Shown here in pieces: positions 64-37,523 of a DNA stretch of 37,523 nucleotides (the stretch's first letter is position 1; every line of letters begins with the position of its first letter). Source of the stretch: Candidatus Lokiarchaeota archaeon (GTDB lineage Archaea > Asgardarchaeota > Thorarchaeia > Thorarchaeales > Thorarchaeaceae); the NCBI GenBank assembly GCA_014730275.1, contig WJIL01000083.1:1-37523 (forward strand), read 5' to 3'. Under the pieces are notes generated by a model that was not told the DNA's origin, searched no databases, and was given only the letters and a program-made list of their open reading frames with translations. A program made the position numbers and the translations under genes.

Positions 64-260
64 GATTTATACCGACTCTTGAGGAATGTTGTCTTTCTAG
101 GCTTCTTATTATAGGGTTGTTGTAACGGTGACCAATCGGAACGGTACTGGCAAATCAGCCTTTTGAAAATACATTAGGACACTCGATTTCTCGAAGGGAG
201 CAAACCATGACTATGTTTTTATGAGCCTATCCCAAGACATGTTTGAGGAGTGAAGCCGTT
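64..260. promoter_or_regulatory. Divergent intergenic promoter region
   Basis: This spacer separates the minus-strand radical SAM gene from the plus-strand surface protein. It holds a minus-strand TATA-like element near 105-115. At 245-251 it holds GAGGAGT, a Shine-Dalgarno-like stretch about nine bases before the TTG at 261. No open frame of note is present. The plus-strand promoter is not clear; an A/T-rich stretch around 165-175 is the best candidate. Confidence 0.45.
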
Positions 261-6200: not shown

Positions 6201-8024
6201 AGCATATACGCCCCTCTCGATGGTGTTACCCTTCAAGGAATCACGAGTGTTTCAGTCAATGTTGATGTTGATGCCGGGTTCTACTATGAAGGTTCTACTA
6301 CGGTATCCACAATAATCACCGTAGATGGTTCAGAGATAGGAAGTGGCGGTGAAGGAGATATAGAATTCAGCTGGAACACTACTGAGCATGACGATGGTCC
6401 TTACACCCTCAGGGTGACCGCTACTGTTAACGCTGTTGAAGACTTCACAGAGGAAATCTCAATCACGCTTGACAATACCGGACCCACTTTGGATCCCGAA
6501 ATAGAAGATGGCAAGGCAACAGATGATAGCAGCCCAAGCTGGCGAGTAGATGCTACGGATGAGCTTTCAAACTTGGCTTGGATTGCTGTCTATCTGGACG
6601 GATCGGAAGTATCGAATGAAACAGCGTCTGGTCAAAGCGATTACCTTGATTTCACTCTTAGTTTGACCGAGGAGAGAAGCTACGAGCTTTGCCTATGCTC
6701 GATGGACGAGGTCGGAAATATAGGCATGGTTAATCTGACCATCTACTACGACATAACCGCCCCTGATCTTTCCTCACCTTCAGATTTCAGCTATGAAGAG
6801 GGTGCTACGGGGAACGCCATTACTTGGACTGCAAGCGATCTGACACCTAGCCATTACAATGTTACTGTGGATGGAAGTCCATGGACCAACGGCGATTGGA
6901 ATGGCTCTGACATCGAGATCAATGTGGATGGTCTTGATGTCGGATTCAACACAGTACGCATTGAGGTGCACGACCAGGCTGGCAACTATGCAATAGATGA
7001 AGTAGAAGTGACCGTTACCGTAGCAGGTGCACCTAGCATTGACCATCCTGCAGATATCGAGTATGATGAAGGTTCAACAGGGCATAGTATAACCTGGAAC
7101 CCGGATGACGTCAGTCCAGATTCATATGTTGTGTTTCGAAATGGATCAGAAGAAGAATCCGGCAATTGGGATGGTTCATCAATAACAGTGCCAGTAGATG
7201 GCCTTGGATTAGGAGTGTACAATTTCACAATAGTGGTTAACAATACAGGTGGCTATTCAGTAGCGGACATTGTTTTCGTGACAGTAGTAGATGGTACTCC
7301 TCCCACAATCAATGAGCCGGGAGATATCTGGTTTGATGAAGGTGATTCCGGGTGGTCCATATCGTGGAATCCTGATGATGACCACCCCGCAAGCTATGAG
7401 ATCTTCAGAAACGGAACACTAGTGAAGTCGGGAGCATGGAATTCCACAGAGGAAACCATCACTATCTCCCTTGAAGGCCTCAGTGGCGGCGTCTACAATT
7501 ACACTGCAGTTGTGTATGATGTTGGCACAAACAGCGTATCGGATGATGTAATTGTTCATGTGATACCAGACACCGATCCGCCAGTAATTCCTGATCCTCC
7601 GGCAGATATCAACTTCCAAGAAGGGCAGACTGGAATAGAGATCTCTTGGCATGCCTCTGATGCCAATCCGGCAAGCTACGTCATATTCAGAAATGGTAGT
7701 CAGATTAAAGCAGGCGCTTGGAATTCGTCATCTGAGCCTATCACCATCTCTCTTGATGGTTTGGAAGATGGCATCTGGAACTACACCGTGATTCTGAAGG
7801 ATATCCATGACCAATCGGTAAGCGATACCGTCATCGTTACTGTGAATCCTTCAACCACAACTACAACGACAACAACTACTGGAACCACCGAGACAACCAC
7901 ATCAACTACAACCACAGGACCACCTCCTGCACCCTTGCCGATTGAAATCATCATAGCAATCGTTGGAGCAGTTGGAGCCATTGTGGTTGTTATAGTGATA
8001 GTCGTTATGAAGAAGCGGAAGTAG
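261..8024 (+). CDS. Giant secreted NosD-like beta-helix / Ig-repeat surface protein with Thr stalk and C-terminal TM anchor
   Basis: This roughly 2587-aa protein opens with a signal sequence (RIFLLVAIGVLLVISI). Residues of about 60-1970 are short N-x-F/I...G-I-x-I...N-x-I/T-x-x-N repeats of right-handed parallel beta-helices (NosD/Beta_helix families). Four blocks end in the NosD-type cap G-N-x-W/F...G-D-x-P-(Y/F), around residues 463, 955, 1254 and 1952. Ig-like domains follow (about 1975-2528), including four roughly 90-residue repeats with the pattern E-G-x-T/S-G-x-x-I-x-W. A pure Thr-rich stalk, one TM helix (about 2560-2582) and a K-K-R-K tail close it, giving an extracellular, membrane-anchored topology. 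N-x-S/T sequons are dense throughout, suggesting heavy N-glycosylation. TTG 261 is preferred over TTG 243 because the GAGGAG motif lies just before it. NosD relatives bind or deliver copper, but in archaea such proteins are mostly surface or adhesion proteins, so ligand and function are unknown. Confidence 0.85.
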   Translation: MSTRSPHSRIFLLVAIGVLLVISISNNGVTMDSQDHFDHDSFDADDTDAAPVGVSKHSESGDRNLTSSMTIEDTSWTSSRGINVTSGADVVFRNVSFWLNNAEYPSAWITVEDGATLVLDNCTIEHDPDGAAPGIRYLDGTDGNITNTRILNFTKIDIGNLASDGFTLYGNEFLDWSALQPIVVQGTGEVNITANEFTNLGDERLYNLIDLIDSPNATIVGNSFHDFGIKERGTFWATWLRGLIDADVGAIIANNTFENIGRVGSGGFYCINANDDNLTIDSNIFSNIRGFGLKIYGTEHLNVTGNLFRNMTGTTETSKNEYESSGAILVSITESSNGTGIIIEHNRIDNVAGAGIFQEKSNNITVRYNTLSSCNGSALRFGDEGSIDYGSFGKTYGNLFFENSIGIFIQNGSDNTFYRNAFINNDLAARDYNHTRNEWNNSAYGNLWFNDYQEEDSNSDWLGDTTPFNYDENITDNHPVFRIGELPPSSGVWEIEIPTVFQWNSISVPADIAVVNSTFGAFGVLNTTVNLVNNPTQVTIENNTVAGFLNATFTKGLSIDTYVSTSLQTSLIQGDLTFNGHDVGQQIEGSIVTGDTLIQHIDGFMMNDNYLNGTTGLQYISNCIADNNTFNDQLSIDDSIDCTFSNASLKGDLGIDGPSYYITFEDSTFDSLTIFGPTTINRDVHYITFDNCTFDTTSWQLGADYRFVNILDSTFYSGFDVTYDPVHNVSVLNNEFYLNGGTAVDIDGDNATVTGNYIVNSTNAIVIGASSNAYTPVVNENEIVNITGNGIDILTDASQLQIKSNWISNCSGFGIRAHGVSNHSVISNNYVELAGSYGIYIEAYPVGVHGYFSNVTHNVVKSCAGNGIEIDELDNSTIFNNTLTMNGGFGVVPTSCGDAAFWMNILYENDAGNIDGAGGMQFDNGTHGNFWGPSGPEGNDYYHGYDDGTGNPWIGDVPYEVASGIYDNYPLLHNQPMFLNNPAVIDTVFFVNFRLIVLNTTAYPQQDMWIRQGGNLTLVGTTIEFQSDASHVQSIIVETGCELRLIRGATITANNTQATYGFGLRSGARLVMNNASIYRCGYGAGNPGFLVNITTISFNNLRIGDSNIGMELYQTSLNVSNVRFTDCGVGLLVRGCSSCNISSFTFSNVDSGVQINSSSDCTVSMNDFTGCNDYGLSIDPASVNIVVRDNEFVEINTAAVYIASSGNEIYMNAFVNNTYHIDEAGSLSNTYNNGTFGNFYFDYDGVDDDASLIGDTPYSSAISDVDDPLPMIVYGSLPTPTGWTVDRLTIALNTNYTITGDVDVNSNLMLFDTRLWMNSSESATYLTITVYDGASLTSHAATIRAVNASHRFKLTANAGSAIWIYDTQLIYQHWLLSRTTDIVVLNTTFTNVYDGIALLGGGTGNITLRNCTVNSAEHHALFIDQYSNITIRDWVFDSVYIAIYLDQSADIYIENILVHGCTHGIRYEDTSGVVGVSNSDFYEAGYVITGNIDRSGPAEKLLVDGINAYKTETMGINCYYVNNATVLNSHIEMNGAGRAYHFDWQTTEYLLWNSYAFNGTYGAYVDDYSNGTINECDFYNFTTGVSLSDVVMPANLSLVGNLFYGCDTGLLGSGSVAIGSSANTFRYCGKAIDAVDSSWSSFQNNEFFDSNYGIYTTNDNFQYCQIAGNSYIDTNYPIYMNGDQDSFQIENETMQNCIDGITLYGTYNEYVGIDNITMSGVAGNAIYLRFCNNVLLSNLTFDNFTYGVFMKREALNVVMNASSFTNGDWAVHLEDPSLTMRDCTISGMTSGAFEYADLWSPDLYLDIDTSNTLEGLPIYSYFNVSDSVIYGHETYSLSVIKSSNVTLAEFEVQEMDDLLIFDSTNVTMSNSSIYADISVEGSNYTFIGNVFDNVTVDFINTMDNVTFTLNAFLTDYDFLNEWQANDFYLNGSEYGNYWYDYSGTDSDDDGIGDTPFDVTSAGETDYYPLMTNPLEYSVTISIYAPLDGVTLQGITSVSVNVDVDAGFYYEGSTTVSTIITVDGSEIGSGGEGDIEFSWNTTEHDDGPYTLRVTATVNAVEDFTEEISITLDNTGPTLDPEIEDGKATDDSSPSWRVDATDELSNLAWIAVYLDGSEVSNETASGQSDYLDFTLSLTEERSYELCLCSMDEVGNIGMVNLTIYYDITAPDLSSPSDFSYEEGATGNAITWTASDLTPSHYNVTVDGSPWTNGDWNGSDIEINVDGLDVGFNTVRIEVHDQAGNYAIDEVEVTVTVAGAPSIDHPADIEYDEGSTGHSITWNPDDVSPDSYVVFRNGSEEESGNWDGSSITVPVDGLGLGVYNFTIVVNNTGGYSVADIVFVTVVDGTPPTINEPGDIWFDEGDSGWSISWNPDDDHPASYEIFRNGTLVKSGAWNSTEETITISLEGLSGGVYNYTAVVYDVGTNSVSDDVIVHVIPDTDPPVIPDPPADINFQEGQTGIEISWHASDANPASYVIFRNGSQIKAGAWNSSSEPITISLDGLEDGIWNYTVILKDIHDQSVSDTVIVTVNPSTTTTTTTTTGTTETTTSTTTTGPPPAPLPIEIIIAIVGAVGAIVVVIVIVVMKKRK
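6759..7846 (+). repeat. Four tandem Ig-like repeats inside the giant surface protein
   Basis: Four units of about 270-285 bp begin near 6759, 7030, 7297 and 7580. Each encodes a strand with P-x-D-I/F-x-Y/F-x-E-G, then G-x-x-I-x-W, a central F-R-N-G-S hairpin in units 2-4, then G-L-x-x-G-x-Y/W-N-(Y/F)-T and a closing V-x-V-T-V. They are diverged at DNA level but clearly the same domain. The same unit occurs five times in the protein encoded at 37416-33316. Confidence 0.8.
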
Positions 8025-12615: not shown

Positions 12616-13590
12616 TTGATAGTAACAGTAACAGGAGTCGTAATCCTAGCATTAGGCATCCTTTCGTTGGCTCTAACGTTCTACGGAGGCTGGATTGCTG
12701 CTTCGATTACAGAGGATTCAGAAATCGAGACCGAATACAGGTCTGAACACCTCTACTACCTGCTTTCCATGATTGGCCTCATTGTCTTGGTCACACGGCT
12801 TTTCAATGTGCCTTTGTTCTTCTGGCTGTTACAATCGTTAGTTCCATTCCTACCTGGTGCCATGTGCGCATATGGAGTGGTGAACGCCGGCTATCCTTTC
12901 TCCACAATGGCACTCCTGTCCAAACTAATCCTACCACTGTTTTACGGAGTTTGGTTGACCGTTGATTTGGCAAATCGAAGGCAGCCGCGAATTCCACTGA
13001 TGAGGACATTGGCTAGAACTTTTCTGGTAGTTCTACTCCCGTTGGTTCTATTCGATAGCGCCATGGATTTGGTTTTCGTAATCACACTGCAACCGATTGA
13101 TGTGCCTTGTTGTTCTAGTGTGTACGATGTCAATCCTCCCTTCTCTCCATCATCGCTCTTTGGACCCGTGGTAAGCTTTGTAATAATGGCATTGACAGTC
13201 ATCTTGGCTCTCGCTCTGTCTGCTTTGCAATGGCAGCGGAAGGATTCCAACCTAGTGCGATTTGGCACTGTTGTGCTTTCGGGAATAGTGGCTATTCTGT
13301 ATGTTCTGGCCATTCATGATGTCTTGGCACCTCTTTCTCTTGGCCTTGCTACTCACCATTGTCCATACTGTCTGTTCCAGGAGTTTCCTGATACAGCGCT
13401 TTTTGCAGGTGTCTTCTGGCTTGGAATAGCAGCCTCTGTGTGGAGAGTGATTCTGGAGATTACTTGGAAACGAAATGGACTTAATGGAAAACATATAGAG
13501 ACCATAGCCTTGGCTTTGCGAAAGATTTCATCTGTAGCCCTACTATTTAGCATGGTATCAGCAGTCTCACATATCATGCTGGCTCTATAG
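12616..13590 (+). CDS. Polytopic membrane protein with CC and HHCPYC motifs
   Basis: This 324-aa protein has eight or nine predicted TM segments (near 3-30, 46-65, 66-92, 98-117, 131-157, 182-205, 215-236, 262-281 and 300-322). Three sites stand out. C84 lies in P-G-A-M-C-A-Y-G. A vicinal pair C165-C166 lies in a loop (D-V-P-C-C-S-S), and H247-H248-C249-P-Y-C252 lies in another loop. The CPxC plus vicinal CC arrangement suggests a membrane thiol-redox or soft-metal function, but I do not recognise the family. The TTG start has GGATGAT just upstream and an in-frame stop at 12607, so no longer form is possible. The nearby NosL-like operon also handles cysteine motifs, though linkage is only suggestive. 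Confidence 0.75.
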   Translation: MIVTVTGVVILALGILSLALTFYGGWIAASITEDSEIETEYRSEHLYYLLSMIGLIVLVTRLFNVPLFFWLLQSLVPFLPGAMCAYGVVNAGYPFSTMALLSKLILPLFYGVWLTVDLANRRQPRIPLMRTLARTFLVVLLPLVLFDSAMDLVFVITLQPIDVPCCSSVYDVNPPFSPSSLFGPVVSFVIMALTVILALALSALQWQRKDSNLVRFGTVVLSGIVAILYVLAIHDVLAPLSLGLATHHCPYCLFQEFPDTALFAGVFWLGIAASVWRVILEITWKRNGLNGKHIETIALALRKISSVALLFSMVSAVSHIMLAL

Positions 13591-16613: not shown

Positions 16614-17288
16614 TTACTCAATTCTCCCGTTCCTGATATCCACAACTGTGTCTGCCCAGTCCAGGACCCGAGTATTGTGAGAAGCCACTACAACAGTCAT
16701 CTCTTCTTGGTCTATAAGCTGGCGCAATTGCGAAAGTGTGTTTGTCGTTAGGTCGACATCCATAGAACTACCGGGTTCGTCGGCAATCAGGATCCTAGGC
16801 GAGTTGATTAAAGCGCGGGCTATACTCACCCTTTGCTTCTCACCTCCACTGAGTTCTGCAACTCTGAAATTCTTGCGATGGCTCAACTCAAGCTTCTCTA
16901 GTTTCTCTTCAGCCTGTTCCTCTGCGTTTGAGATACTCATGTCTGTACAAAGCTTCGGAAGGGCAACGTTCTCTATTGCACTTAGATGAGGAAAGAGATA
17001 CTCTGATTGAAACACGATGCCAATCTCCTCTCTCCTCATCTTTGTTTTGAAGACTTCAGAGGTGCCTGAAATGCTTGTGCCTCGCAGAAAAACCTCCCCA
17101 CGACTGGGTGATGTAAGCAAAGAGATGATACTCAGCAGCGTCGTCTTTCCGGCTCCACTCGGTCCTGCAATGGCTGTTGCCTTGCCTTCCACTATTTCCA
17201 GAGTTACGTCAGCCACGGCGTGGACTTCTCTATTTGATCCGGTATGATAGGTCTTCCAGACATTCTCAAGTCGGATTGGACTTTTCAT
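16614..17288 (-). CDS. ABC transporter ATPase, MacB/LolD type
   Basis: This 224-aa nucleotide-binding subunit has Walker A G-P-S-G-A-G-K-T (42-49), Q-loop F-Q-S (93-95), signature L-S-G-G-E-K-Q-R (146-153), Walker B I-L-I-A-D-E-P (166-172) and switch H204. The A-loop region and the order of motifs are those of the MacB/LolD/FtsE group that works with FtsX-like permeases. The usual D-E-P-T-G after Walker B reads D-E-P-G-S. ATG 17288 is chosen over the in-frame GTG 17297 because GAGGTG lies directly upstream of it. It starts one base after the permease stop, so translation is coupled. It is the last gene of the six-gene operon from 20011. Confidence 0.92.
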   Translation of the reverse strand: MKSPIRLENVWKTYHTGSNREVHAVADVTLEIVEGKATAIAGPSGAGKTTLLSIISLLTSPSRGEVFLRGTSISGTSEVFKTKMRREEIGIVFQSEYLFPHLSAIENVALPKLCTDMSISNAEEQAEEKLEKLELSHRKNFRVAELSGGEKQRVSIARALINSPRILIADEPGSSMDVDLTTNTLSQLRQLIDQEEMTVVVASHNTRVLDWADTVVDIRNGRIE

Positions 17289-17289
17289 T

Positions 17290-18504
17290 TCACACACCTC
17301 GCAATACGATATCTGGTTCGGTAATGGCGTTTCGCCAAGCAGGAATCACCGAAGCAACTAGAATCGGAGCTATACCAACGGCGTAGGCTGTGAAAATAGT
17401 GCTTGGTGAAACCATGAGCGGCATACCACCTAGAAGCAAACTGGTGCTCCACCCCAGAACAAACTCAGAAAGAAGAGGTGCCCCCAAGAAATAATCATAG
17501 ACTATTGCAAAGCTGATTCCAGTGCTACACCCCAATAGGCCCAGAATGAGGTTCTCGAACATACGAATTTCTAGGACATCAACTGTGTCGAATCCAAGTG
17601 CCTTGAGAAGACCAACTTCCCTCCGTGCTTCATCTGAGCCTGAACTTGAAACTGTGAATGCAAGAAGAACCACAACAAGTAGCAGAACAGCCCAGAGCAA
17701 CGCTACTATGCCGGCTCGAACCGAATAAGCACGAAGTCCCATATCCCGCATGGCGGATTTGCTGAGTATCCGCGCCTCCGGGAAGGTGTTATCCATTTGA
17801 AGCGCTATGCTGTTGGTATTGTATCCTGGACTTGTCCAGACTGCGATATCCGTGCACGAGTCATTGGCAACTCCTAGCACCTCTCTCGCGCTCTGAATAT
17901 CCGTCATAAGGATATCATAGCTGTAGATTTTCGATTTGCTGGAGAAAATCCCAACAATTTCAAAGGGAATGAGCGAGTTGTCATAAGCAATCAAGCTTAT
18001 TTGAGAACCAACACCGAGGCTCACTGATGCCATTGACCTTTGCATCAAATCCAGAATTCCTTGTCCCACAACAAGCTTATGTGTGTCATTCTGGGGCAAG
18101 AACGATCCCTCTCCTATGATATCTGTTCCAACTGCCCCCGGAGTCTCTTCATACTGGGCAGGATTGATTCCCATAATCGTCATCAATTTTCCACTGCCAA
18201 CGTCTGCGTACCCCCAGACACGAGGTAAAACATCCTCAACACCACTGTATGCCGTCAGATTATCACGCCACGAAATGGGGCATGGTGCTTGTCTTCCTCC
18301 AACAAGTTTCTGTACTGTGATATCTGGACCTTCATCCAGTGAGAGGGAAAAATCCTGTGCAACGCCTTGCCTGATGAATTCAATTGAGCAAAGAAGTGAA
18401 GTAGACATGGCTAAAGCAAGAATGATAGCTACTGTCTTGCTTCTGTGTTTGATGACATTACCGATTGCGTAATTCGCCAGATTAGCGTGCTTTCTTACGC
18501 CCAT
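17290..18504 (-). CDS. FtsX/MacB-type ABC transporter permease
   Basis: This 404-aa permease starts with cytosolic N-Y-A-I-G-N-V-I-K-H-R-S-K-T-V, the usual elbow before TM1 (about 24-44). A large external MacB-like periplasmic/core domain follows (about 50-255). It then has three TM segments at about 266-290, 313-345 and 355-390, ending in A-W-R-N-A-I-T-E-P-D. E-A-R-R-E-V-G-L-L-K-A-L-G (about 294-306) is the FtsX coupling segment to the ATPase. A perfect GGAGGT Shine-Dalgarno site precedes the ATG. The start overlaps the preceding small gene by 23 nt. With the ATPase it should form a mechanotransmission-type complex acting on extracytoplasmic or lipid-associated substrates; cysteine-rich neighbours suggest a metal or thiol cargo, by inference. 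Confidence 0.9.
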   Translation of the reverse strand: MGVRKHANLANYAIGNVIKHRSKTVAIILALAMSTSLLCSIEFIRQGVAQDFSLSLDEGPDITVQKLVGGRQAPCPISWRDNLTAYSGVEDVLPRVWGYADVGSGKLMTIMGINPAQYEETPGAVGTDIIGEGSFLPQNDTHKLVVGQGILDLMQRSMASVSLGVGSQISLIAYDNSLIPFEIVGIFSSKSKIYSYDILMTDIQSAREVLGVANDSCTDIAVWTSPGYNTNSIALQMDNTFPEARILSKSAMRDMGLRAYSVRAGIVALLWAVLLLVVVLLAFTVSSSGSDEARREVGLLKALGFDTVDVLEIRMFENLILGLLGCSTGISFAIVYDYFLGAPLLSEFVLGWSTSLLLGGMPLMVSPSTIFTAYAVGIAPILVASVIPAWRNAITEPDIVLRGV

Positions 18505-18895
18505 ATGAGGACCTCCCTATGAGAATTATGATTGCAGGTGGGATAAGTGAAGAAAGTATCAATAACGTGATAACCTCAAGATTGCTTAGTTGGAGCACAA
18601 CTGGATATGTCTGGAATGGGATATCTACGGATATTGGATTTTCATGCATGATTGGACTTACTATGGGATTGCCCCTGTAAAGTGAATAGCCACCAGGTAT
18701 GTCTCCAAGAACCCCATGAAGGGTTTCTAGAATTGGTGATCTGAAGCTATACGAGTCCTGAACTATGCTTGGACCGAGCTCAGGAAATGGCCATATCCCA
18801 ATCCCAAGATTGGTTCTGCTGAATAGGAATGTAGAAGCGATACCAAAGGATACGAGGACAACAACGGAAGCCACGACTGCCTTCTTCTGTTTCAT
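18482..18895 (-). CDS. Two-TM membrane protein of the Nos-like ABC operon
   Basis: This 137-aa protein has an N-terminal signal/anchor helix (A-V-V-A-S-V-V-V-L-V-S-F-G-I-A, about 5-24), an external domain of about 75 residues, a second TM (about 105-127, N-L-E-V-I-T-L-L-I-L-S-S) and a basic tail R-K-K-A-R. Start ATG 18895 has GGGAGAAG immediately upstream; an in-frame ATG at 18922 would precede it without benefit. It overlaps both neighbours (18504 permease start) or lies within 11 nt of them (18906 NosL-like stop), so it is clearly cotranscribed. The family is not recognised. Its external domain between two helices suggests a small accessory subunit presenting or receiving the substrate. Confidence 0.75.
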   Translation of the reverse strand: MKQKKAVVASVVVLVSFGIASTFLFSRTNLGIGIWPFPELGPSIVQDSYSFRSPILETLHGVLGDIPGGYSLYRGNPIVSPIMHENPISVDIPFQTYPVVLQLSNLEVITLLILSSLIPPAIIILIGRSSYGRKKAR

Positions 18896-18905
18896 TCTTC
18901 TCCCT

Positions 18906-19376
18906 TCACTCTGGCCAAACATACGGATTAGCTACTATTTCCCCACTATATTCATCTAGGAAATGGCTTTCGCATAGATCTTCCCCGTAGGCGTCTTCAC
19001 AGACTGCTACTATGGTTGGTTCCTCGGTGGTGGGATTCACATAATTCTCAGAATAGATCCAGACAATCATTGGATCGTTCCAGTCCATTTCCATACCACA
19101 GATTGGACAGTGGACCCTGATATTCTCCAGTAGACTGATTTCCCCCGTTGTTTTCAGTCTCTCAAAAGCTAGTAGAGAGATGTTTATGCAACAGTAGTGC
19201 CTTTGGCTTCCGTTTGCAAACAGGAATGTGACCTCGTTGCCTAACGGATTCATGATAGGATCTCCGGTCCAATCACAATAGTCTGTTGTAGGTAACGTGA
19301 TGGTGTAACTGTATATTGCCACGCAACCTAGTATGACAAAGACGACCTGTACCATCTGTTTCTGCTGCTGGTTCAA
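18906..19376 (-). CDS. NosL-like membrane-anchored cysteine protein
   Basis: This 156-aa protein has one N-terminal anchor helix (about 8-26) and an external domain rich in cysteine: C34 in D-Y-C-D-W-T-G, a vicinal pair C62-C63 after Q-R-H-Y, C90-P-I-C93-G-M, C126 and C135. The (F)-A-N-G-S-x-x-H-Y-C-C segment and the C-x-x-C-G-M motif recall NosL-type copper chaperones of nitrous oxide reductase clusters and related MerB-fold proteins, although the spacing is not that of classical NosL. It probably binds a soft metal ion outside the cell. The start is TTG 19376 with GGTGA upstream; it lies 14 nt after the DUF4418 gene. No nosZ is in the window, so a denitrification role is not implied. Confidence 0.7.
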   Translation of the reverse strand: MNQQQKQMVQVVFVILGCVAIYSYTITLPTTDYCDWTGDPIMNPLGNEVTFLFANGSQRHYCCINISLLAFERLKTTGEISLLENIRVHCPICGMEMDWNDPMIVWIYSENYVNPTTEEPTIVAVCEDAYGEDLCESHFLDEYSGEIVANPYVWPE

Positions 19377-19615: not shown

Positions 19616-20011
19616 TTAGATGTCGATAGTGTAGGTCTGCGAATCAGCAGAATTCTGCATCTCGTCGAAAGCGGTCACATAGAAACTGTAACTGTCACCA
19701 CTGCTTGCCTCTCCGACCGATGCTACCCAGCGGCCTCCCGCAATACAAAGACAGGCAAAGAACTGCATGTCTCTGGTCTGATATTCTTCTCCATTCTTTG
19801 AGAAGTGTAGTTTCGCTCCCGAGACCCCAGAAGGATCAATGCAGTAGATTACTACACGGACTTCATCATCCGGCTTTGGTGGGGAAGGCCTTATGTCGAT
19901 TTGATAGATATTGGGTCCGCTCACATCACTGAAGGCTGCAGAATAAATGGCCCAGGAGAGTCCAACTACTAGGAGAACTCCCACGCAGGCCAGCTTAGTC
20001 TTTGTCTTCAT
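19616..20011 (-). CDS. Secreted single-domain Ig/FNIII-like protein, first gene of the operon
   Basis: This 131-aa protein opens with a signal/anchor helix (L-A-C-V-G-V-L-L-V-V-G-L-S-W-A). It then has one beta-sandwich domain of about 100 residues: P-S-P-P-K-P-D-D-E-V-R-V at the first strands, a C-I-D-P-S-G-V loop, and a final Y-S-F-Y-V-T-A-F-D strand typical of Ig/fibronectin-like modules that bind sugars or proteins. Cysteines at about 57, 86 and 88 add to the operon's cysteine theme. It is the promoter-proximal gene, divergent from the LDI-like gene across about 146 nt. It probably acts as an extracellular accessory or binding protein of the transporter; the exact role is unknown. Confidence 0.7.
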   Translation of the reverse strand: MKTKTKLACVGVLLVVGLSWAIYSAAFSDVSGPNIYQIDIRPSPPKPDDEVRVVIYCIDPSGVSGAKLHFSKNGEEYQTRDMQFFACLCIAGGRWVASVGEASSGDSYSFYVTAFDEMQNSADSQTYTIDI

Positions 20012-20097: not shown

Positions 20098-20105
20098 TAT
20101 AAATA
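20098..20105 (+). promoter_or_regulatory. Strong TATA box of the LDI-like/ECF operon
   Basis: TATAAATA within GGAAAGTATAAATACC is a near-consensus archaeal TATA box with a purine-rich BRE (GGAAAG) directly upstream. Transcription should begin near 20127. That falls after the in-frame GTG at 20122 and about 30 nt before ATG 20158, so it decides the start codon of the downstream gene. Confidence 0.75.
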
Positions 20106-20157
20106 CCCGGCGGAGTCTATAGTGAAAATCAAAGCCGCTTCTGGACGGATTGAGACA

Positions 20158-21792
20158 ATGAGTCAAGCCATCAAGCAAAACAAATACTTCCTTACTACCG
20201 TCATTCTGAGTATTATTCTCTTCAGCATGACATTTGGAAACTTACCCGGCCCCTCCACACAATCGGGAATAGTAGAGGCGAATGGGACGAAATATGATTT
20301 CAGCGAGTATGGCGTTGTGAACAAAGAACAGCTAGGACTGTTCAATTACCTTAACACGCTTGTCAGCCATGAGTATCAAGATTACGGTGAGTGGGACGGC
20401 TGGTACGCTGAAGATTTCCATGGCCTTCATCACTACGTTCTGGCATTCATGGATTACGCTGTTTCTGGTTTGTTCGAGACGACGCCTGGGTACAGATCAG
20501 AGCATTATCGCGGATTCGCACACGATCTTGTCAAGAAAATGAACACTACCGAAGATGTCTGGGGCAATAGCAGCATAGAATGGAAGGAATGGACGCACCC
20601 AAGCTACAACTACGTGGATTATTACTATCCGAATGCCACACACCCCGACGGTGATGATGTATATACCGGTGGCTTTCGTGGGCCTGCCAACATCATGTGG
20701 ACCGGACACTACGCACTCATGATGTCACTCTATGAGCGTTCATTCAAGACCGGGGAGATGACAGACGAAATCTCTTGGTTTGTTGAAGACTGGAATACTT
20801 CATTGACAACTGACGGACTTGGTAATCCGAAAGAAGGTGGCATATGGGGCGTAGGGCTTATCCCCTGCGAGCCATACATTGTCTTTGTTCAATGCAATAG
20901 CATACCGATTTACGCAACCGAGCTCTATGACAATATGTACGGAACACAATACATGGAAAGCGGTATGTGGGATGCTGGTTTGGAGTATGCCAACGAAGTG
21001 ATGCAAGATGAGTATGACCTATTCACTGACGGCTATTTCGTACAGGAACAATTCGGCCACTTCTACTCCGAAGAGCGTTTGCCTGATGAATATCCTGGGC
21101 CGCAGATGTCATTCTATGTTGATGACAAACCAAAGGTATCCTCATATTGCGACGCATGGGCACTAGCATTCTTGGAGTATACACAGCCCGAGAAAACCGC
21201 GGAAGACTACCCTGTATTTATGGAGCATTTCAAGAAGGAAGTTTCCAGCGACCAATGCTACATGATGGATACCTATAACAATCCTGACGGCTTCGGCACC
21301 TACGACATCCTAGGTAGCTTATTCTCAATGGCGCTTACCAAACAGCAGGACGATTTTGTAACCTTGGAACGATTGATGAATTTTCTTTACAGTTCATACA
21401 ACAAAATCTGGGATGGGCGGAAGATGCATTTCGATACCATGAGTCTAGAGCCCTTCCTTCAACCTGTGCTTGCATTTGGCTGGCTTTGGGCAACCACACC
21501 GATTACGGTGAAAGACTTGGCAGACACAAGACCGGCAGCCTTCTGGGATTATCCCTATATCAGTGAAGCCGATGACGAAAATATTTGGGTCTATCAGGCA
21601 GAGTGGGATCCAGATAAAGAAGGCTTCATTCTAAATGTGCAGGTGGATGAACAAGCTACAATCACATTCAGCAACTTCGACCATGAGCCAGTCCCATATC
21701 ATAATGGAGATCCACTTCAAGAAATGACGCAAGAAAACGGAGACTGGGTGTTGACACTGGACCCAGGTTCATATCAGCTGGTGATAACATGA
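20158..21792 (+). CDS. Secreted linalool dehydratase/isomerase (LDI)-like protein
   Basis: This 544-aa protein has an N-terminal signal/anchor (Y-F-L-T-T-V-I-L-S-I-I-L-F, about 10-24), placing it outside the membrane. The core is an alpha/alpha-barrel-type fold. It has the LDI catalytic pattern: M180-W-T-G-H184 (M125/H129 in Castellaniella LDI, from memory) and C237-E-P-x(5)-Q245-C246-N-S, matching the C171/C180 pair with identical nine-residue spacing and the Gln before the second Cys. LDI hydrates or dehydrates and isomerises monoterpene alcohols. A beta-rich C-terminal domain of about 85 residues is extra. GTG 20122 is rejected because the TATA box would start transcription after it. The stop overlaps the ECF-type gene by four bases (ATGA). 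The actual substrate, terpenoid or otherwise, is unknown. Confidence 0.72.
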   Translation: MSQAIKQNKYFLTTVILSIILFSMTFGNLPGPSTQSGIVEANGTKYDFSEYGVVNKEQLGLFNYLNTLVSHEYQDYGEWDGWYAEDFHGLHHYVLAFMDYAVSGLFETTPGYRSEHYRGFAHDLVKKMNTTEDVWGNSSIEWKEWTHPSYNYVDYYYPNATHPDGDDVYTGGFRGPANIMWTGHYALMMSLYERSFKTGEMTDEISWFVEDWNTSLTTDGLGNPKEGGIWGVGLIPCEPYIVFVQCNSIPIYATELYDNMYGTQYMESGMWDAGLEYANEVMQDEYDLFTDGYFVQEQFGHFYSEERLPDEYPGPQMSFYVDDKPKVSSYCDAWALAFLEYTQPEKTAEDYPVFMEHFKKEVSSDQCYMMDTYNNPDGFGTYDILGSLFSMALTKQQDDFVTLERLMNFLYSSYNKIWDGRKMHFDTMSLEPFLQPVLAFGWLWATTPITVKDLADTRPAAFWDYPYISEADDENIWVYQAEWDPDKEGFILNVQVDEQATITFSNFDHEPVPYHNGDPLQEMTQENGDWVLTLDPGSYQLVIT

Positions 21793-22403
21793 GCGCAGAT
21801 TCCGAAGAATCCAATGACGACATCCAGATGTCGCAAATCGTTGATCGACTGAATGTCAGCTCAGGAAAAGAGGCGGCTGTAACATTAGCAGCTGCGGCTA
21901 TTGCAGTGGTGCTTTATGTAATTCTAACAGCAATTCCATGGCCATACACAATGGTAAGTCTGTTCAAGTTGGGAATTCTTCCATCCTTAGCAGTTATATC
22001 TACCATTGGAGCGATTCGTGGTCCAGTAGCGGGATTTCTGACTGGGTATCTAGGAGAGATTTTAGCAGGACTTCTGTTGCATGGCACGATTCTTCTAGGC
22101 ACAGCTACTGCTGCAGCATTTGGTGTATGCGGGTTAGTCGTTGGAATCCTCTCATATGACTTCAGCCGTGGAAGGTCGCTCGGTAAGCTATCATTCATGT
22201 CTGCCTTTGGATTTGTGCTGACTACCTTGCTGGTTACAGCCCTCAGCCTATTTGTTGAAGTAACAGCACCAATGGCCGCAATTGGCTTCTTACTCCTACC
22301 CTATTTGACTGTAGGGTTGCCGACGATGATCTTGTTTACTCCTGTCTATGCACGTGTATGGCATATTTTCATGCGGAGATTCTTGCCCAGTCATCTCAAA
22401 TAG
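21789..22403 (+). CDS. ECF-type transporter S component (substrate-binding membrane subunit)
   Basis: This 204-aa protein has a polar N-terminus of about 28 residues and then six hydrophobic segments (about 30-50, 58-78, 79-99, 102-122, 134-156, 160-185). I-L-T-A-I-P-W-P-Y-T followed by G-I-L-P-S-L-A, and G-A-I-R-G-P-V-A-G-F-L-T-G-Y-L-G-E, are typical of S components of energy-coupling-factor vitamin/metabolite importers. No EcfA or EcfT is present, so it would need a shared module encoded elsewhere. Its ATG overlaps the TGA of the LDI-like gene (ATGA), so the two products are made together. The likely inference is uptake of the compound that the LDI-like protein produces or binds. Confidence 0.72.
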   Translation: MSADSEESNDDIQMSQIVDRLNVSSGKEAAVTLAAAAIAVVLYVILTAIPWPYTMVSLFKLGILPSLAVISTIGAIRGPVAGFLTGYLGEILAGLLLHGTILLGTATAAAFGVCGLVVGILSYDFSRGRSLGKLSFMSAFGFVLTTLLVTALSLFVEVTAPMAAIGFLLLPYLTVGLPTMILFTPVYARVWHIFMRRFLPSHLK

Positions 22404-22464: not shown

Positions 22465-22845
22465 TCAGTAGCTAAGGCTTTGTTTGTGCGTTTGATCCGC
22501 CCACAGCTTGCGATAAAAATAGAAATACTCGAAGAGTGCCGGGACATCATCGCAGAATAGGATTTCGTGTTCTCGGATGACATTCATTTTCATATAAAGC
22601 GGAAGCTCTTCAAACAACCTTACATCGTATTTATCCGCATTGATTCTCTTCCAGATTTCCCCGAGCAAATCCGCCTTCTCTTTTGGTGTTTCTGCATCTG
22701 GAGCAACAACACAGACGTCAATACCGCTTTTCGGGCTCATTTCCCCACGCACGTAAGAACCAAACAGCAGTACACCTTGTATCGGGGTCAAATCACTTAG
22801 CCACTCAAGTTCTTCTCTTATTTGGTGAAGCTCTGGGACATCCAA
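22465..22845 (-). CDS. MNT-type nucleotidyltransferase (MntA-like antitoxin) with degenerate active site
   Basis: This 126-aa minimal nucleotidyltransferase is of the kind that, as MntA, AMPylates and silences HepT toxins. The signature G-S-Y-V-R-G-x(6)-S-G-I-D-V has S30 and D43, but the first metal-binding Asp of G-S-x(10)-D-x-D is Gly41 (codon GGT instead of GAT). The third acidic residue is kept (D74 in K-Y-D-V-R-L). Loss of one metal ligand should cripple catalysis. A strong GGAGGAGGT Shine-Dalgarno site precedes the ATG inside the upstream HEPN gene, with a 28-nt overlap, so the two are coupled. It is convergent with the ECF gene ending at 22403. Confidence 0.85.
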   Translation of the reverse strand: MDVPELHQIREELEWLSDLTPIQGVLLFGSYVRGEMSPKSGIDVCVVAPDAETPKEKADLLGEIWKRINADKYDVRLFEELPLYMKMNVIREHEILFCDDVPALFEYFYFYRKLWADQTHKQSLSY

Positions 22846-23249
22846 TCTTCTACCTCCTCCATATACTTCTCTATTTTCGGAAGGGTTCGTCTTACACTTT
22901 CAATGAGTAGATCAACATCCAAGTCATTGTAGATGAGTACTATTCGATTTCTGAGTCCATTAGCTTCTCTAAGAACATTCGCTGATTCTTCAGAAATGAT
23001 GTGATTATTTTTTGCCATCTTGATATTCGAGTAGTTATCCATAGGTGGCAATTCGTTATCTTTAAGCATCATAGCTAGGACATCGGTTGAAACCTCGACA
23101 GCTTCTTGGTATGCCTTTTGTATTATGAGTAGAGTTTCTGTATCGTTGAAATCGCTATCCGACTGAAGTTTTTGGTTCAATAGAGAAATCCGCATTCTGC
23201 CATGGCTGAGTTTCTGCATGTATCGTTTGCGGCGGACTTCATTCGACAT
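22818..23249 (-). CDS. HEPN (HepT/DUF86-like) protein lacking the catalytic His
   Basis: This 143-aa all-helical HEPN protein would be the toxin RNase partner of the MNT gene. The family motif R-x(4)-H-x-Y appears as R100-N-R-I-V-L105-I-Y107: Arg and the AMPylation-target Tyr are kept, but His is replaced by Leu (CTC against CAC, one base). The N-terminus is basic (M-S-N-E-V-R-R-K-R-Y) and the rest is helical, with N-Y-S-N-I-K-M and A-N-V-L-R-E-A-N-G-L-R-N-R leading into the motif. The toxin is probably catalytically dead. Its 5' end overlaps in antisense the longest frame of the next plus-strand gene, which argues for a shorter start there. Confidence 0.8.
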   Translation of the reverse strand: MSNEVRRKRYMQKLSHGRMRISLLNQKLQSDSDFNDTETLLIIQKAYQEAVEVSTDVLAMMLKDNELPPMDNYSNIKMAKNNHIISEESANVLREANGLRNRIVLIYNDLDVDLLIESVRRTLPKIEKYMEEVEDWMSQSFTK

Positions 23250-24715: not shown

Positions 24716-25084
24716 ATGGAAAGCGTTCGTAGCCAACCCAATGACTTCATTGGAATCATACTCTATACGATGCTTGAACAAAGAACTTCCGAGAATCCAG
24801 ATTATCCCCCATTTCATACTTGGAAGATGAATGTTGTCCTTGCTACTGATTATTATCCTCTAACTCTCATATTTGACAACGGATTGGAATTTCGAAAGGG
24901 AGATTTGCAGGAGCCTGACATAAGGATTGGTTTTCAATTCAATACTCTACTTGAGTTAGTTCAGGGGAAAAAGACACTCTTAGGAGCTATCCTTGGGAAG
25001 GCCGTCAAAATCGAGGGGCTTCTACAGCATCCAACGGATGTGTATCGACTGTACAAGCTAATCCGCTATATCATTGAGGAATGA
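24716..25084 (+). CDS. SCP2 sterol-carrier-like protein
   Basis: This 122-aa protein has the SCP2-like lipid-binding plan. It starts with a W-K-M-N-V-V-L strand, then Y-Y-P-L-T-L-I-F-D-N-G-L-E-F, D-I-R-I-G-F with a following helix (N-T-L-L-E-L-V), then G-K-K-T-L-L-G-A-I-L-G-K-A-V-K-I-E-G-L-L-Q-H-P and a C-terminal helix. SCP2 domains bind acyl chains or other hydrophobic ligands in a tunnel. No signal sequence is visible. GGTG lies about eight bases before the ATG. The stop is three bases before the FAD oxidoreductase start, so the pair is almost certainly cotranscribed, and the SCP2-like protein may present a lipid-like substrate. Confidence 0.75.
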   Translation: MESVRSQPNDFIGIILYTMLEQRTSENPDYPPFHTWKMNVVLATDYYPLTLIFDNGLEFRKGDLQEPDIRIGFQFNTLLELVQGKKTLLGAILGKAVKIEGLLQHPTDVYRLYKLIRYIIEE

Positions 25085-25087
25085 GAT

Positions 25088-26518
25088 ATGAATATCAAAG
25101 ATAGGCTGATTGAAATAGTCGGATCAAAATATGTCACAGATAACCTGGCTGACCGATACATCTATTCTTTTGATATGACCGAGAATCCAGGTCATCAACC
25201 TGATTTTATTGTCATGCCGGACACTGTCTATGAGATACAAGCAATTGTTAATTTGGCTAATGAAACATTAACTCCCTTGATTCCATACGTAACTGGACAG
25301 AGTGTGGGTGGGCTTACTATTCCTCAGGTTGAAGGAGCTGTTATTGTTGACCTGAAGCGGATGAATCGGGTTATTGAAATCGATCGGGACGCGATGTACG
25401 TTCTTGTGGAACCCGGAGTCACATTTGGTCATTTGAAGCGAGCACTGGAAACCGAGTGTCCGGAATTTAGATACACTTACCCCCTCGCCCCTCCATACAC
25501 ATCGGTAGTAGCAAATGCCCTTCTCCAGGGGCTTTGCGACCTTTCAACTCAACACGGCGCGATGGCTGACTTCATCAATGGGCTTGAAGCTGTTCTGCCA
25601 ACTGGTGAAGTTGTTCAAATTGGTTCGGGAATCTTAGGCGAAAGCAACTGGTTTGGGCGGTACCCTCTTCCTGATCTTGTAGGTCTTTTCTCAGGCTGGC
25701 AAGGAACGAGTGGTATCGTTACGAAGATGGCTCTGAAAATCTGGCCCAAGCCTGAGCATAAGAAACATGCCGCCTTGTTCACTGTTGGAGAACGAGAGAC
25801 AACAACTCTTCTCAAGCAGATTGCTTCAAGTCAAGTTCTTGAGGATGCTGACTGCATGTCTATTTCTATCGTGAAGATGCTTCTTGGAGCTGAATATCCT
25901 GTCAACGCCCTAGAAGGCGAACCAGACTATGGAACCGTGCTAGCTGTGTCTGGAAATACTGAAGTGGAAGTTTCAGAGAAGATGGCGGTAATCGAGGCAT
26001 TTGTGAAAAAGGCAAACCAGCATGGAGAGAAGCATCTCCTCGTAGACTGGGACACTGTAAGCAAGATGATGGGGTCCCAGGCAGAATCATGGATTGATTT
26101 TCCGTCAGACGCATTCAAGGTCCTGACTGAATTTGATGGCCTCACGTGGTGCGGCACCTATATTCATCCAAAGCATTGGGGAGAAGCCTTGACGGGCGGC
26201 CGTTCTATTGTTGAGAAATATGGTTTTGAATTGATGGCATTCCTGAAACCAATGAACGGAATGCATTTTGCAGAGTTCAAATTCATCATCCGATTCAAGA
26301 AAGAATCACACATTGTGGAGAAGGTTAGGAAATGCAATGATGAGCTCTTGGATTTTGCTCTGGGTTTGGGAGCGATTCCGTACAAAACGCCTGTTTGGGC
26401 TGCAAGGAAGCTCCAGAGGAGGATTGATTCGGGCTACCTCAAATTGCTGAGAAGGCTCCGTAGATTCCTTGACCCAAATGGCATCATGAATCCTGGACGA
26501 TGGGCCATAGATAGTTAG
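25088..26518 (+). CDS. GlcD-like FAD-linked oxidoreductase
   Basis: This 476-aa flavoprotein is of the vanillyl-alcohol-oxidase/GlcD type. The PCMH FAD-binding domain (about 36-225) shows F-I-V-M-P-D-T-V-Y-E-I, V-T-G-Q-S-V-G-G (pyrophosphate loop, about 68-75), V-E-P-G-V-T-F-G-H-L and G-W-Q-G-T-S-G-I-V-T-K-M-A-L-K-I-W-P-K-P. The C-terminal FAD-oxidase domain ends in the family's R-R-F-L-D-P-N-G-I-M-N-P-G-R-W. Relatives oxidise 2-hydroxy acids (glycolate, D-lactate) or alkyl-glycerone ethers and pass electrons to a CCG-type iron-sulfur partner. None is adjacent, but such a protein is encoded at 30261. Coupling with an SCP2-like gene hints at a lipid-like substrate, closer to alkylglycerone-phosphate-synthase relatives; this is inference. 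Confidence 0.88.
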   Translation: MNIKDRLIEIVGSKYVTDNLADRYIYSFDMTENPGHQPDFIVMPDTVYEIQAIVNLANETLTPLIPYVTGQSVGGLTIPQVEGAVIVDLKRMNRVIEIDRDAMYVLVEPGVTFGHLKRALETECPEFRYTYPLAPPYTSVVANALLQGLCDLSTQHGAMADFINGLEAVLPTGEVVQIGSGILGESNWFGRYPLPDLVGLFSGWQGTSGIVTKMALKIWPKPEHKKHAALFTVGERETTTLLKQIASSQVLEDADCMSISIVKMLLGAEYPVNALEGEPDYGTVLAVSGNTEVEVSEKMAVIEAFVKKANQHGEKHLLVDWDTVSKMMGSQAESWIDFPSDAFKVLTEFDGLTWCGTYIHPKHWGEALTGGRSIVEKYGFELMAFLKPMNGMHFAEFKFIIRFKKESHIVEKVRKCNDELLDFALGLGAIPYKTPVWAARKLQRRIDSGYLKLLRRLRRFLDPNGIMNPGRWAIDS

Positions 26519-33315: not shown

Positions 33316-36300
33316 CTACAATCGCCCTTCCAGTTTCATTCTCGGAACAATGAAGAGTACCACTATCAGGGCGATTCCCGCTATAGCAACACCTGCTGCC
33401 AAGGCTATCATCATCGGGTTCGGACCTGGTGGCGGTGTTGTTCCCGTGGTTGTTGTTGATGTTGTGTCGGTTGTGGTTGTAGTGGTTGTAGTCGTTGTCG
33501 TATCAGTTTCGGGGAGCACAGACACTAGTACTGAATCCCTTGCCTGATTATCTCCTTCATCTGTAACGATTAAAGAGAAGTTGTATGTGCCCGGCGCGAG
33601 TGAGTCGACATCGACCACAATATCCGAGCCATTCCATTTTCCGTCATACAGAGCTGTTCCATTTCTCAACACAGAGTACGTCACCATTCCTGCATCACTA
33701 ACATTCCAAGAAATACTATGGCCGGTTGTACCCACTTCGTATATGATGTCTTCAGGAGAGCTGATGATAGGAGCAACCGTGTCGATTACATCAACGGTGA
33801 CTGTATCGCTGGCCTTGTTACCTGTGCCATCATAGACAGTCAGTGTGAAGTTGTACTCTCCAACTGAAAGACCATCGACGTCGTATTCGATGTTTGAGCC
33901 ATCCCAAGATTCACTCAGGACAAGTATGCCATTCCTGTGTATGTTGTAGATCTGAGGATCCAAGTCAGAAACAACCCAGCCTATTGAATTTCCTGTCGAG
34001 CCCCGTTCGTATTCCACATCTACTGGCGAATCAATATTTGGGGGAATAGTATCCGTCACAGAGACAATGACGGTATCACTTGCATAATTCCCACTAGAGT
34101 CATGGAGGATAATCATAACATTGTGTGAACCAAGTGAAAGACCATCGACATCATATTCCACGTTGGAGTCATTCCAGGACGAGTCTTGAACGATGCTGCC
34201 ATCCACATGTATCTCATATGATGACGGGTCCAAATCAGAAGCATTCCAGTTGATTGAGTGTCCTGTTGAACCGAGCTCGTATTGGATGTCATCTGATGGA
34301 TCGATTGCAGGTGCGGTAGTATCTATGACCGAGACCATTACCGAATCCGTGACAACATTGCCGCTGGTGTCGACAACTGCAATAGTGAAGTTATGTGTTC
34401 CAAGAGAAAGACCATCAATACTCTGCTCAATAGTCAATCCGTCCCAGGACGCATCCTCGATAAGACTGGCATTTCTGTATATCCGATATGAATCTGGGTC
34501 TAAATCTGCCGGATCCCAGATGATTGTATTGCCTGTTGAACCCAGCTCGTAGTCTATATCTTCTGGACGATTTATTTCCGGTGAAGTAGAATCGAAAACT
34601 GTTACGAACACACTATCTACCGAAATCTTGTCTAGAGTATCATTGATACTGATTGTATAGTTGTACACGCCGAGATCCAGTCCATCCACATCAACAGTGA
34701 GATTCGCACCTTCGGCGATGCCTGAATCTATGGCGGTGCCGTTTCTGTAAACTATGTAGGAATCTAAGCCCTGGTCTGATGCTGTCCAGGTTATTGAATT
34801 GCCTACTCCTCCCAACTCATAGCTGACATCTTGAGGTTGATTTACTGTTGGAGGATATAAGTCGAGTAAGCATGGGTGATTATCTACATTCATAGCAAGA
34901 CCATCTACTAGATAGGAGCCTGAACCTGCATAATCTGACCAGCAATTTCCAATGGTCCCATTATCCCAAGTAGTAGATTGGCTATCATCAAACCCATTGT
35001 AGTGATGATTATAGCCAATATTATTGCTGTAGAAGAGGTTATTCTCAGATGCGGCATCCAATTCTATTCCCACACCATTTTGAATAGCTGTGTTGTTGAG
35101 ACCAACGCAATCATCTGAATCATCAAAATTGAAACCGGTCAAGTCATTGCATGTTGCATTGTTATCCGTAAGGTTCAGATTACTTGACTTCGCGAAGTTG
35201 AAACCAAAATACAGATTCGCGATTGCAGAATTTTCTTCAAGACTGTGATTGACTGCTGAATCAAAGCTGAATCCCAGCTGGTTAGCAACCGCAGAGTTGT
35301 TTGTGAGTATCCACCCAATGCAGTTCTCCAAACTGAAACCACTGAATGAGTTGCTGGTGACAGTATTGGTGTGTAGATGGCCATTATCTGTCTCACGTAT
35401 AGAGATTCCGTTTATCCCATTCTGAGTGGCTTGATTACCAGTAAGATTAAGATTGGCTGAGCTGTCAATCCAGAAGCCGCATTCAACATTATCATTGGCA
35501 AGGTTGTTTGTTAGATTACAGTAGTTGGCGTATTCAACAAAGAACCCGTAATTGGTGTTGTTACTTGCAGTATTTCGGTTCAATGTAACATCTGTCATCG
35601 TGTTCCATTGCGTACCAGCTAGATGAAATCCATTATCCGAATTCTGCTTTGCAGTGTTATTCTGGTATACTATGAAATCCGAATAGAGAAGGCAGAAACC
35701 ATGATGAGCGTTTTTAAGTGCCGTATTGTTTTCCAAATGGATATGATTCGAACTGCGTACGCTGAAACCATGATTGACACTATTGAACGCAGTGTTGTTT
35801 TCAAGAGTGCAGTCTTCTGTTTGGATTAACCTATATGCATTAGCGGAATTATTCGCCGAGGAAGTTCCTCTGATTGTGCAGTTGTCACAGGATAGCAGAC
35901 ATACTCCTTCTGTAGCATTTTCATAGAGTCCAGTCTCGACCTCTACGAAAGATGAATTGACAACCACCATTTGTCCATATTGGCTACCGTCAATTTTTGT
36001 GTCGTTACCCCCGTTGAAATAGCCCAGCGCTTTTCCATTTACAGTGTTTCCATCTTCGCTTGTTATCCACTCCCTAAGCGAATCACCTCCCAAGTAGATT
36101 CCGCTTTGTTGAAATGTATTATTGTGGAGTGAGCATTGGTATACGTCTCTTGAGATATACATCCCGTACACGCTTTTTGAAATGGTATTGTTTGAGAATG
36201 CGGTCCAGTAAACTCTGTCAAGATAGAATGCGGATTCGGTGTTGTTTTGCACTTCGTTCATAGTGAAATTGGAGGTCTCGATATACTCTAGATTCAGACC

Positions 36301-37416: not shown

Positions 37417-37523
37417 AAACAAAACGCCTTCAAGGTCTTGCCTGCGTGCTTTGTCCGAATAATAAATCCATCGCAACCTTTGTGAATCTGTGAGCCCATT
37501 ATCCTATCCTCACAAAGTATACC
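37417..37523 (-). promoter_or_regulatory. Promoter/leader of the second surface protein
   Basis: On the minus strand, GATTTATTATT at about 37455-37466 is a TATA-like element. It would start transcription near 37435, giving a short leader with GAAGGCG about eight bases before ATG 37416. Nothing else is visible to the window end. Confidence 0.4.

Follow-up and report, generated by a model that had tools for sequence, protein, structure and literature searches.

A protein of 544 residues belonging to the linalool dehydratase/isomerase (LDI) fold family is encoded in a Thorarchaeota-related archaeon and, judged from gene order across relatives, almost inseparably with a dedicated S-component-like membrane protein. 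The window analysed comprised 37,523 nucleotides (contig 83 of a 3.64-Mb genome that is 99.5% complete; most of its named close relatives are Thorarchaeota MAGs). A preceding reading of the same DNA, made without database searches (the sequence-only reading), had proposed a secreted LDI-like enzyme whose gene overlaps that of an ECF S component, the two tentatively forming an extracellular unit for conversion and uptake of a lipid/isoprenoid or a cofactor. The features discussed below are listed in Table 1.

Table 1. Features of the two-gene unit and its surroundings (window coordinates; fractions are counts of the family sequences that cover the respective residues)
Feature	Position	Strand	Basis
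TATA-like box (TATAAATA) preceding the enzyme and S genes	20098..20105	+	by eye
LDI-family (PF18566) enzyme, 544 aa, predicted exported	20158..21792	+	profile, fold, alignment
Y93, aligned with LDI Y66	20434..20436	+	invariant 27/27; hhalign
M180-x3-H184, aligned with LDI M125 and H129	20695..20709	+	invariant 28/28; alignments
C237-E-P-x5-Q-C246, aligned with LDI C171 and C180	20866..20895	+	invariant 28/28; alignments
Y330, aligned with LDI Y240	21145..21147	+	invariant 27/27; hhalign
S-component-like membrane protein, 204 aa, start overlapping the LDI stop (ATGA)	21789..22403	+	PF07155, PRK13661, TIGR04518 best matches, below cut-off
Polytopic membrane protein c42, CC and HHCPxC motifs, part of the module	12616..13590	+	no Pfam assignment; co-occurrence
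ABC ATPase of the FtsX-type transporter module	16614..17297	-	profile; homologue after LDI-S in L185-L187
FtsX-type permease of the module	17290..18504	-	profile; homologue after LDI-S in L185-L187
Small membrane protein c40 of the module	18482..18922	-	no Pfam; homologues beside LDI-S in L185-L187
Cys-rich exported protein c39	18906..19376	-	conserved with the module in Thorarchaeota
Small exported protein c20, oriented divergently to the LDI gene	19616..20011	-	homologues a few kb from LDI-S in L185-L187

The 544-residue protein matched the Pfam family Ldi (PF18566) with an E value of 1.7e-14 and 54.5 bits (cut-off 26.1), and the same cut-off was exceeded in 28 genomes of the phylum. Sequence searches of the PDB returned linalool dehydratase/isomerase entries only, with E values of 7e-9 for the single sequence and 3e-23 for the family profile. 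Alignment of the family with LDI in hhalign gave a probability of 99.5% over 290 columns, using an LDI sequence that was rebuilt from HMMER printouts and in which 13 unknown residues were set to X. An AlphaFold model calculated from 29 family sequences reached a pLDDT of 91.0 and a pTM of 0.89 (a single-sequence model had a pLDDT of 43). When this model was compared with the PDB using Foldseek, the first 27 matches were all LDI chains (best E value 1e-13, TM-score over the target 0.81); the next match had an E value of 2.5e-4 and an r.m.s.d. of 11.9, and alpha/alpha barrels unrelated to LDI (YteR, GH127 and GH76) were found at E values of about 1e-3. The proposed LDI-like identity is thereby confirmed, the PF18566 cut-off being passed and the Castellaniella LDI being the best fold in the PDB; a better match to an unrelated alpha/alpha-barrel family was looked for by profile, Foldseek and hhalign, all of which selected LDI. 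Hydropathy and the AlphaFold model divide the enzyme into an N-terminal hydrophobic segment (residues 11–29), an (alpha/alpha) barrel and a C-terminal beta domain (residues ~467–543), the last of which lies outside the stretch aligned to LDI.

The active-site pattern reported in the sequence-only reading, M180/H184 together with C237-E-P-x5-Q-C246, is present with the same cysteine spacing as in LDI and is invariant in the family. Two further invariant residues, Y93 and Y330, align with LDI Y66 and Y240, which we take to line the pocket. Only about 60–65 of the 544 columns of the family alignment are invariant and the profile, the fold and hhalign agree on LDI, so that conservation of the Met/His/Cys/Cys set is beyond chance. 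From these alignments M180, H184, C237 and C246 would share one pocket. The active-site residues of LDI given in the literature are H128, Y44, D38, C179 and C170, in a numbering that is lower by one (PMC12455561), and LDI mutants at C171, C180 and M125 have entries in the PDB.

LDI proper converts linalool, geraniol and myrcene and is a pentamer whose active site lies at the subunit interface. The two LDI residues contributed by the neighbouring subunit, Asp39 and Tyr45, are not conserved in the archaeal family, in a region where the alignment is weak (domain 1, 9.9 bits). Column 66, corresponding to Asp39, contains D9/R8/N6/T2/S1/Y1 (Asn66 in this protein), and column 73, corresponding to Tyr45, contains Y9/D6 and otherwise gaps. 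The capping disulfide of LDI is C48–C101 (PMC6600392); a counterpart is absent from this protein, in which cysteines occur only at positions 237, 246, 331 and 367. Because Asp39 and Tyr45 are variable and the disulfide is missing, the chemistry or substrate of LDI cannot be assumed, and because both features were tested and not found we do not call the enzyme a linalool dehydratase/isomerase proper. On the alignment as it stands, the interface-residue differences would call for caution and would not amount to proof of a different chemistry.

The reading frame of the enzyme is open from a GTG at 20122 to 21792 on the plus strand, and translation from the ATG at 20158 gives the 544-residue product; this start is considered sound because the aligned N-termini of homologues agree with it. 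It lies, by eye, some 50 nt downstream of the TATA-like box. The single hydrophobic segment at the N-terminus predicts an exported and possibly membrane-anchored enzyme. Of the earlier description as secreted, the export is thus retained, with the qualification that the protein may stay attached to the membrane.

The overlap of stop and start codons was also verified, the downstream frame beginning within the stop codon of the enzyme gene. This 4-bp overlap is found in this genome and in one relative of the same genus (G001) only; at other loci the S gene starts 0–14 bp past the LDI stop, and over the 25 loci where both are readable the start lies between -4 and +14 bp from it. In 149 relatives, matches to LDI were obtained in 27 and matches to the S protein in 32, of which the weakest LDI match (G102) and several weak S matches are unconvincing. 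Wherever the sequence extends past an LDI copy, an ECF-S-like gene follows directly, in Thorarchaeota, in Heimdall/Hodarchaeota and on one Methanomethyliaceae contig; the pairs outside Thorarchaeota include those of Hodarchaeota (L185), Heimdallarchaeota (L186, L187 and L189) and Methanomethyliaceae (L188, on a contig that may be misbinned). The conserved adjacency on which the proposed link depended was therefore found, with S beside LDI at all loci that are complete enough, in different archaeal phyla. In G003, G006, G026 and G029 the two genes have been duplicated together. Among 47 family genomes, 23 carry both genes, one carries LDI only (G030, at a contig end), one carries S only (G023) and 22 carry neither. 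The identity matrices of LDI and S correlate with r = 0.92 overall and 0.50 within Thorarchaeota (0 of 2000 shuffles of Thorarchaeota rows were as high), an agreement to which shared ancestry contributes. Traces of the S gene were seen in genomes lacking LDI: fragments in G007 (L076), a copy interrupted by four in-frame stop codons in G014 (L079) and the S gene alone in G023 (L071).

The best-matching families of the partner are ECF S components for riboflavin (PF07155/PRK13661) and folate (TIGR04518), all under their curated cut-offs: 24.1 bits against 26.7 for PF07155, and 26.6 against 99 and 22.2 against 60 bits for other curated S-family models. For its homologues, the best model was riboflavin S in 19 of 24 cases and folate in the other five, with scores far under cut-off. 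A profile search with the partner for a solved S component gave no match. Its size, its hydropathy and the conserved GPxAG...G and G-x2-G-x3-G-x3-Y patterns would fit a six-helix S component of the RibU/FolT type (PF07155, TIGR04518), from which it differs in its scores, in adjoining the gene of an exported enzyme and in having no ECF module genes adjacent. The earlier assignment as an ECF S component thus stands as regards best matches, size and motifs, but not as regards the curated family cut-offs. ECF systems usually share modules among S components, and three matches to CbiQ/EcfT over cut-off are encoded in this genome away from the locus. Since the S-component fold is also found in receptors (PMC11109136), we infer import by the partner and do not take it as given.

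That the two genes constitute a conversion-and-uptake unit appears to us about evenly balanced. This reading is favoured by the LDI profile and fold, the invariant pocket, the export segment, the near-obligate pairing with S and the EcfT genes in the genome; it is weakened by the variable Asp39 and Tyr45, the missing capping disulfide, the S scores and the receptor use of the S fold. The earlier proposal is accordingly kept for the LDI fold, the pocket set and the S linkage, while the LDI interface and disulfide and the S cut-offs speak against it and genomic context lends its substrate weak support. The enzyme would act at the external surface of the membrane by cofactor-free acid–base chemistry through C237, C246 and H184; the reaction might be a dehydration, a hydration or a 1,3-hydroxyl shift on a small molecule of the allylic-alcohol type, and the S protein would capture the product and, together with a shared EcfAA'T module, bring it into the cell. 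As substrate, an alcohol of the isoprenoid type suggests itself most readily, but this is a tentative choice, which we would sooner doubt than accept.

LDI itself is exported (PMC6600392) and cofactor-free (PMC6013536). The archaeal enzyme resembles the LDI of Castellaniella defragrans (PF18566; PDB entries 5G1U, 5HLR and 5I3T) in fold, Pfam family, spacing of the cysteine pair, the Met-x3-His motif, the two tyrosines and the export signal; apart from the interface and disulfide differences, it is distinguished by an identity of ~20% in the structural alignment, by the extra C-terminal beta domain and by the importer-like gene partner. The linalool isomerase of Thauera linaloolentis (PMC4791888) is likewise a membrane-anchored LDI relative (~20% identical to LDI) and cofactor-free. 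It has four N-terminal membrane helices, an enzyme domain predicted to be cytoplasmic and a gene apart from its neighbours, whereas the archaeal enzyme has one helix, a predicted external location and a partner gene.

Conversion and uptake could instead concern a vitamin or cofactor precursor, the enzyme trimming or rearranging a water-soluble, flavin- or pterin-like compound for import by S, with the LDI fold recruited for other chemistry. The riboflavin and folate matches of the S homologues and the loss of the LDI interface residues agree with this, and micronutrients are described as the cargo of known ECF S proteins (PMC4820897). We regard it as unlikely, as the S scores are far under cut-off (for example the 26.6 bits against 99) and no flavin or pterin gene is closely linked, the riboflavin kinase belonging to another gene block at a distance of ~6 kb.

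Just downstream of LDI-S, and on its strand, ten Thorarchaeota genomes encode a membrane protein followed or accompanied by a second isopentenyl phosphate kinase (IPK); in G022 the kinase-like protein stands alone, and in some genomes a peroxiredoxin lies in between. Assignment of the second IPK is firm (NF040647, 161 and 177 bits against 120). The membrane protein weakly matches CTP_transf_1 (Pfam, E 0.0034) and CdsA in the PDB (E 0.0023), and its motifs RK-x2-H, GGDG-x-AD-x2-GR and SP-x3-DN presumably reflect a resemblance to phytol/dolichol kinases. The two are candidates for archaeal polyprenol and polyprenyl-phosphate kinases. The pair adjoins LDI-S in 10 of 19 genomes, its association with LDI in the family is not significant (19/5/14/9, Fisher p = 0.21; within-genus p = 0.13), and G021 and G041 carry this syntenic block and lack LDI; in this genome the pair is located on another contig (C6). 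Strict co-occurrence of the pair with LDI was thus ruled out by the wider survey, and its adjacency to LDI-S is probably one ancestral event. Many Asgard genomes, whether or not they have LDI, carry a kinase-like/second IPK gene pair (L034:10544-12388; G000:C6:119239-120876).

Polyprenol salvage (VTE5/FOLK and VTE6; PMC9782597) requires one kinase acting on the alcohol and another acting on the phosphate, and the pair beside LDI-S looks similar; here, however, the second kinase is of the IPK family and not VTE6, and the link to LDI-S is not significant. The literature consulted contained no archaeal example of this salvage. A scavenging route in which the exported LDI relative isomerizes or hydrates prenyl alcohols from the environment, the ECF S protein imports them and the kinase-like and IPK-type kinases produce the diphosphate for ether lipids is rather improbable on this evidence. 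If true, it would provide the first isoprenoid ECF importer and an archaeal polyprenol salvage pathway; we know of no earlier case of either.

The S-like protein might also be a membrane receptor or an anchor for the enzyme, with no role in transport. The receptors that share its fold, its scores below cut-off and the lack of an ECF module gene next to the pair point this way; at 204 residues it has no fused signalling domain, however, and the EcfT genes in the genome suit the usual sharing of ECF modules, so that we consider a sensor or scaffold quite improbable.

The FtsX/ABC module lies divergently upstream of LDI-S in the window, with c42 farther off. At L185–L187, LDI-S is immediately followed by homologues of the small membrane protein, the permease and the ATPase, and those of c42 and c20 are found a few kilobases on; no counterpart of the Cys-rich protein (18906-19376) was detected at these loci. 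The module stands alone in most Thorarchaeota. LDI and c42 show a modest association (16/8/3/20, Fisher p = 2.8e-4; within-genus shuffles p = 0.034), in statistics that handle relatedness at the genus level only and for a gene chosen after it had been noticed near LDI. A larger envelope system made up of LDI-S, the FtsX/ABC transporter, c42 and the Cys-rich module, for instance a metal- or redox-dependent one with Met/His/Cys/Cys holding a metal, is the least likely reading: module genes adjoin LDI-S here, in G012 and at three loci of Heimdall/Hodarchaeota, in one or the other of two arrangements, but in most genomes the module is distant or on another contig, c42 is missing from eight LDI genomes, the Cys-rich protein has no copper-chaperone match by profile and the known LDI is cofactor-free (PMC6013536). 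Identification of the Cys-rich protein as a NosL-type copper chaperone, suggested by motifs seen by eye, was supported by neither Pfam nor PDB profiles. The module of FtsX/ABC, Cys-rich exported proteins and c42 is conserved also at L191–L200 and L210.

Searches of the open-access literature found no report of LDI in archaea and none of an ECF S component with an isoprenoid; a literature search for LDI-domain homologues in fungi gave unrelated papers only. The enzyme–importer pair is real and apparently undescribed, a known enzyme fold in a near-obligate partnership. Should conversion and uptake proceed as outlined, the pair would represent an undescribed way for archaea, including Asgard archaea, to convert a molecule extracellularly before importing it, and would extend LDI-type thiol acid–base chemistry to archaea. 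Among its carriers are archaea related to the ancestors of eukaryotic cells, and the invariant pocket and the obligate partner open the substrate to direct testing.

Two giant beta-helix/NosD-type proteins are encoded at the ends of the window (243-8024, 2593 residues; 33316-37476, 1386 residues). Immediately after the S gene and antisense to it (22465-23249), a nucleotidyltransferase (Polbeta/NTP_transf_2) overlaps a small ORF in a HEPN/MNT-like arrangement, with HEPN assigned by eye. At 24716-26518, an SCP-2 sterol-transfer-like protein (marginal, 21.4 against 21.3 bits) directly precedes an FAD-linked oxidase.
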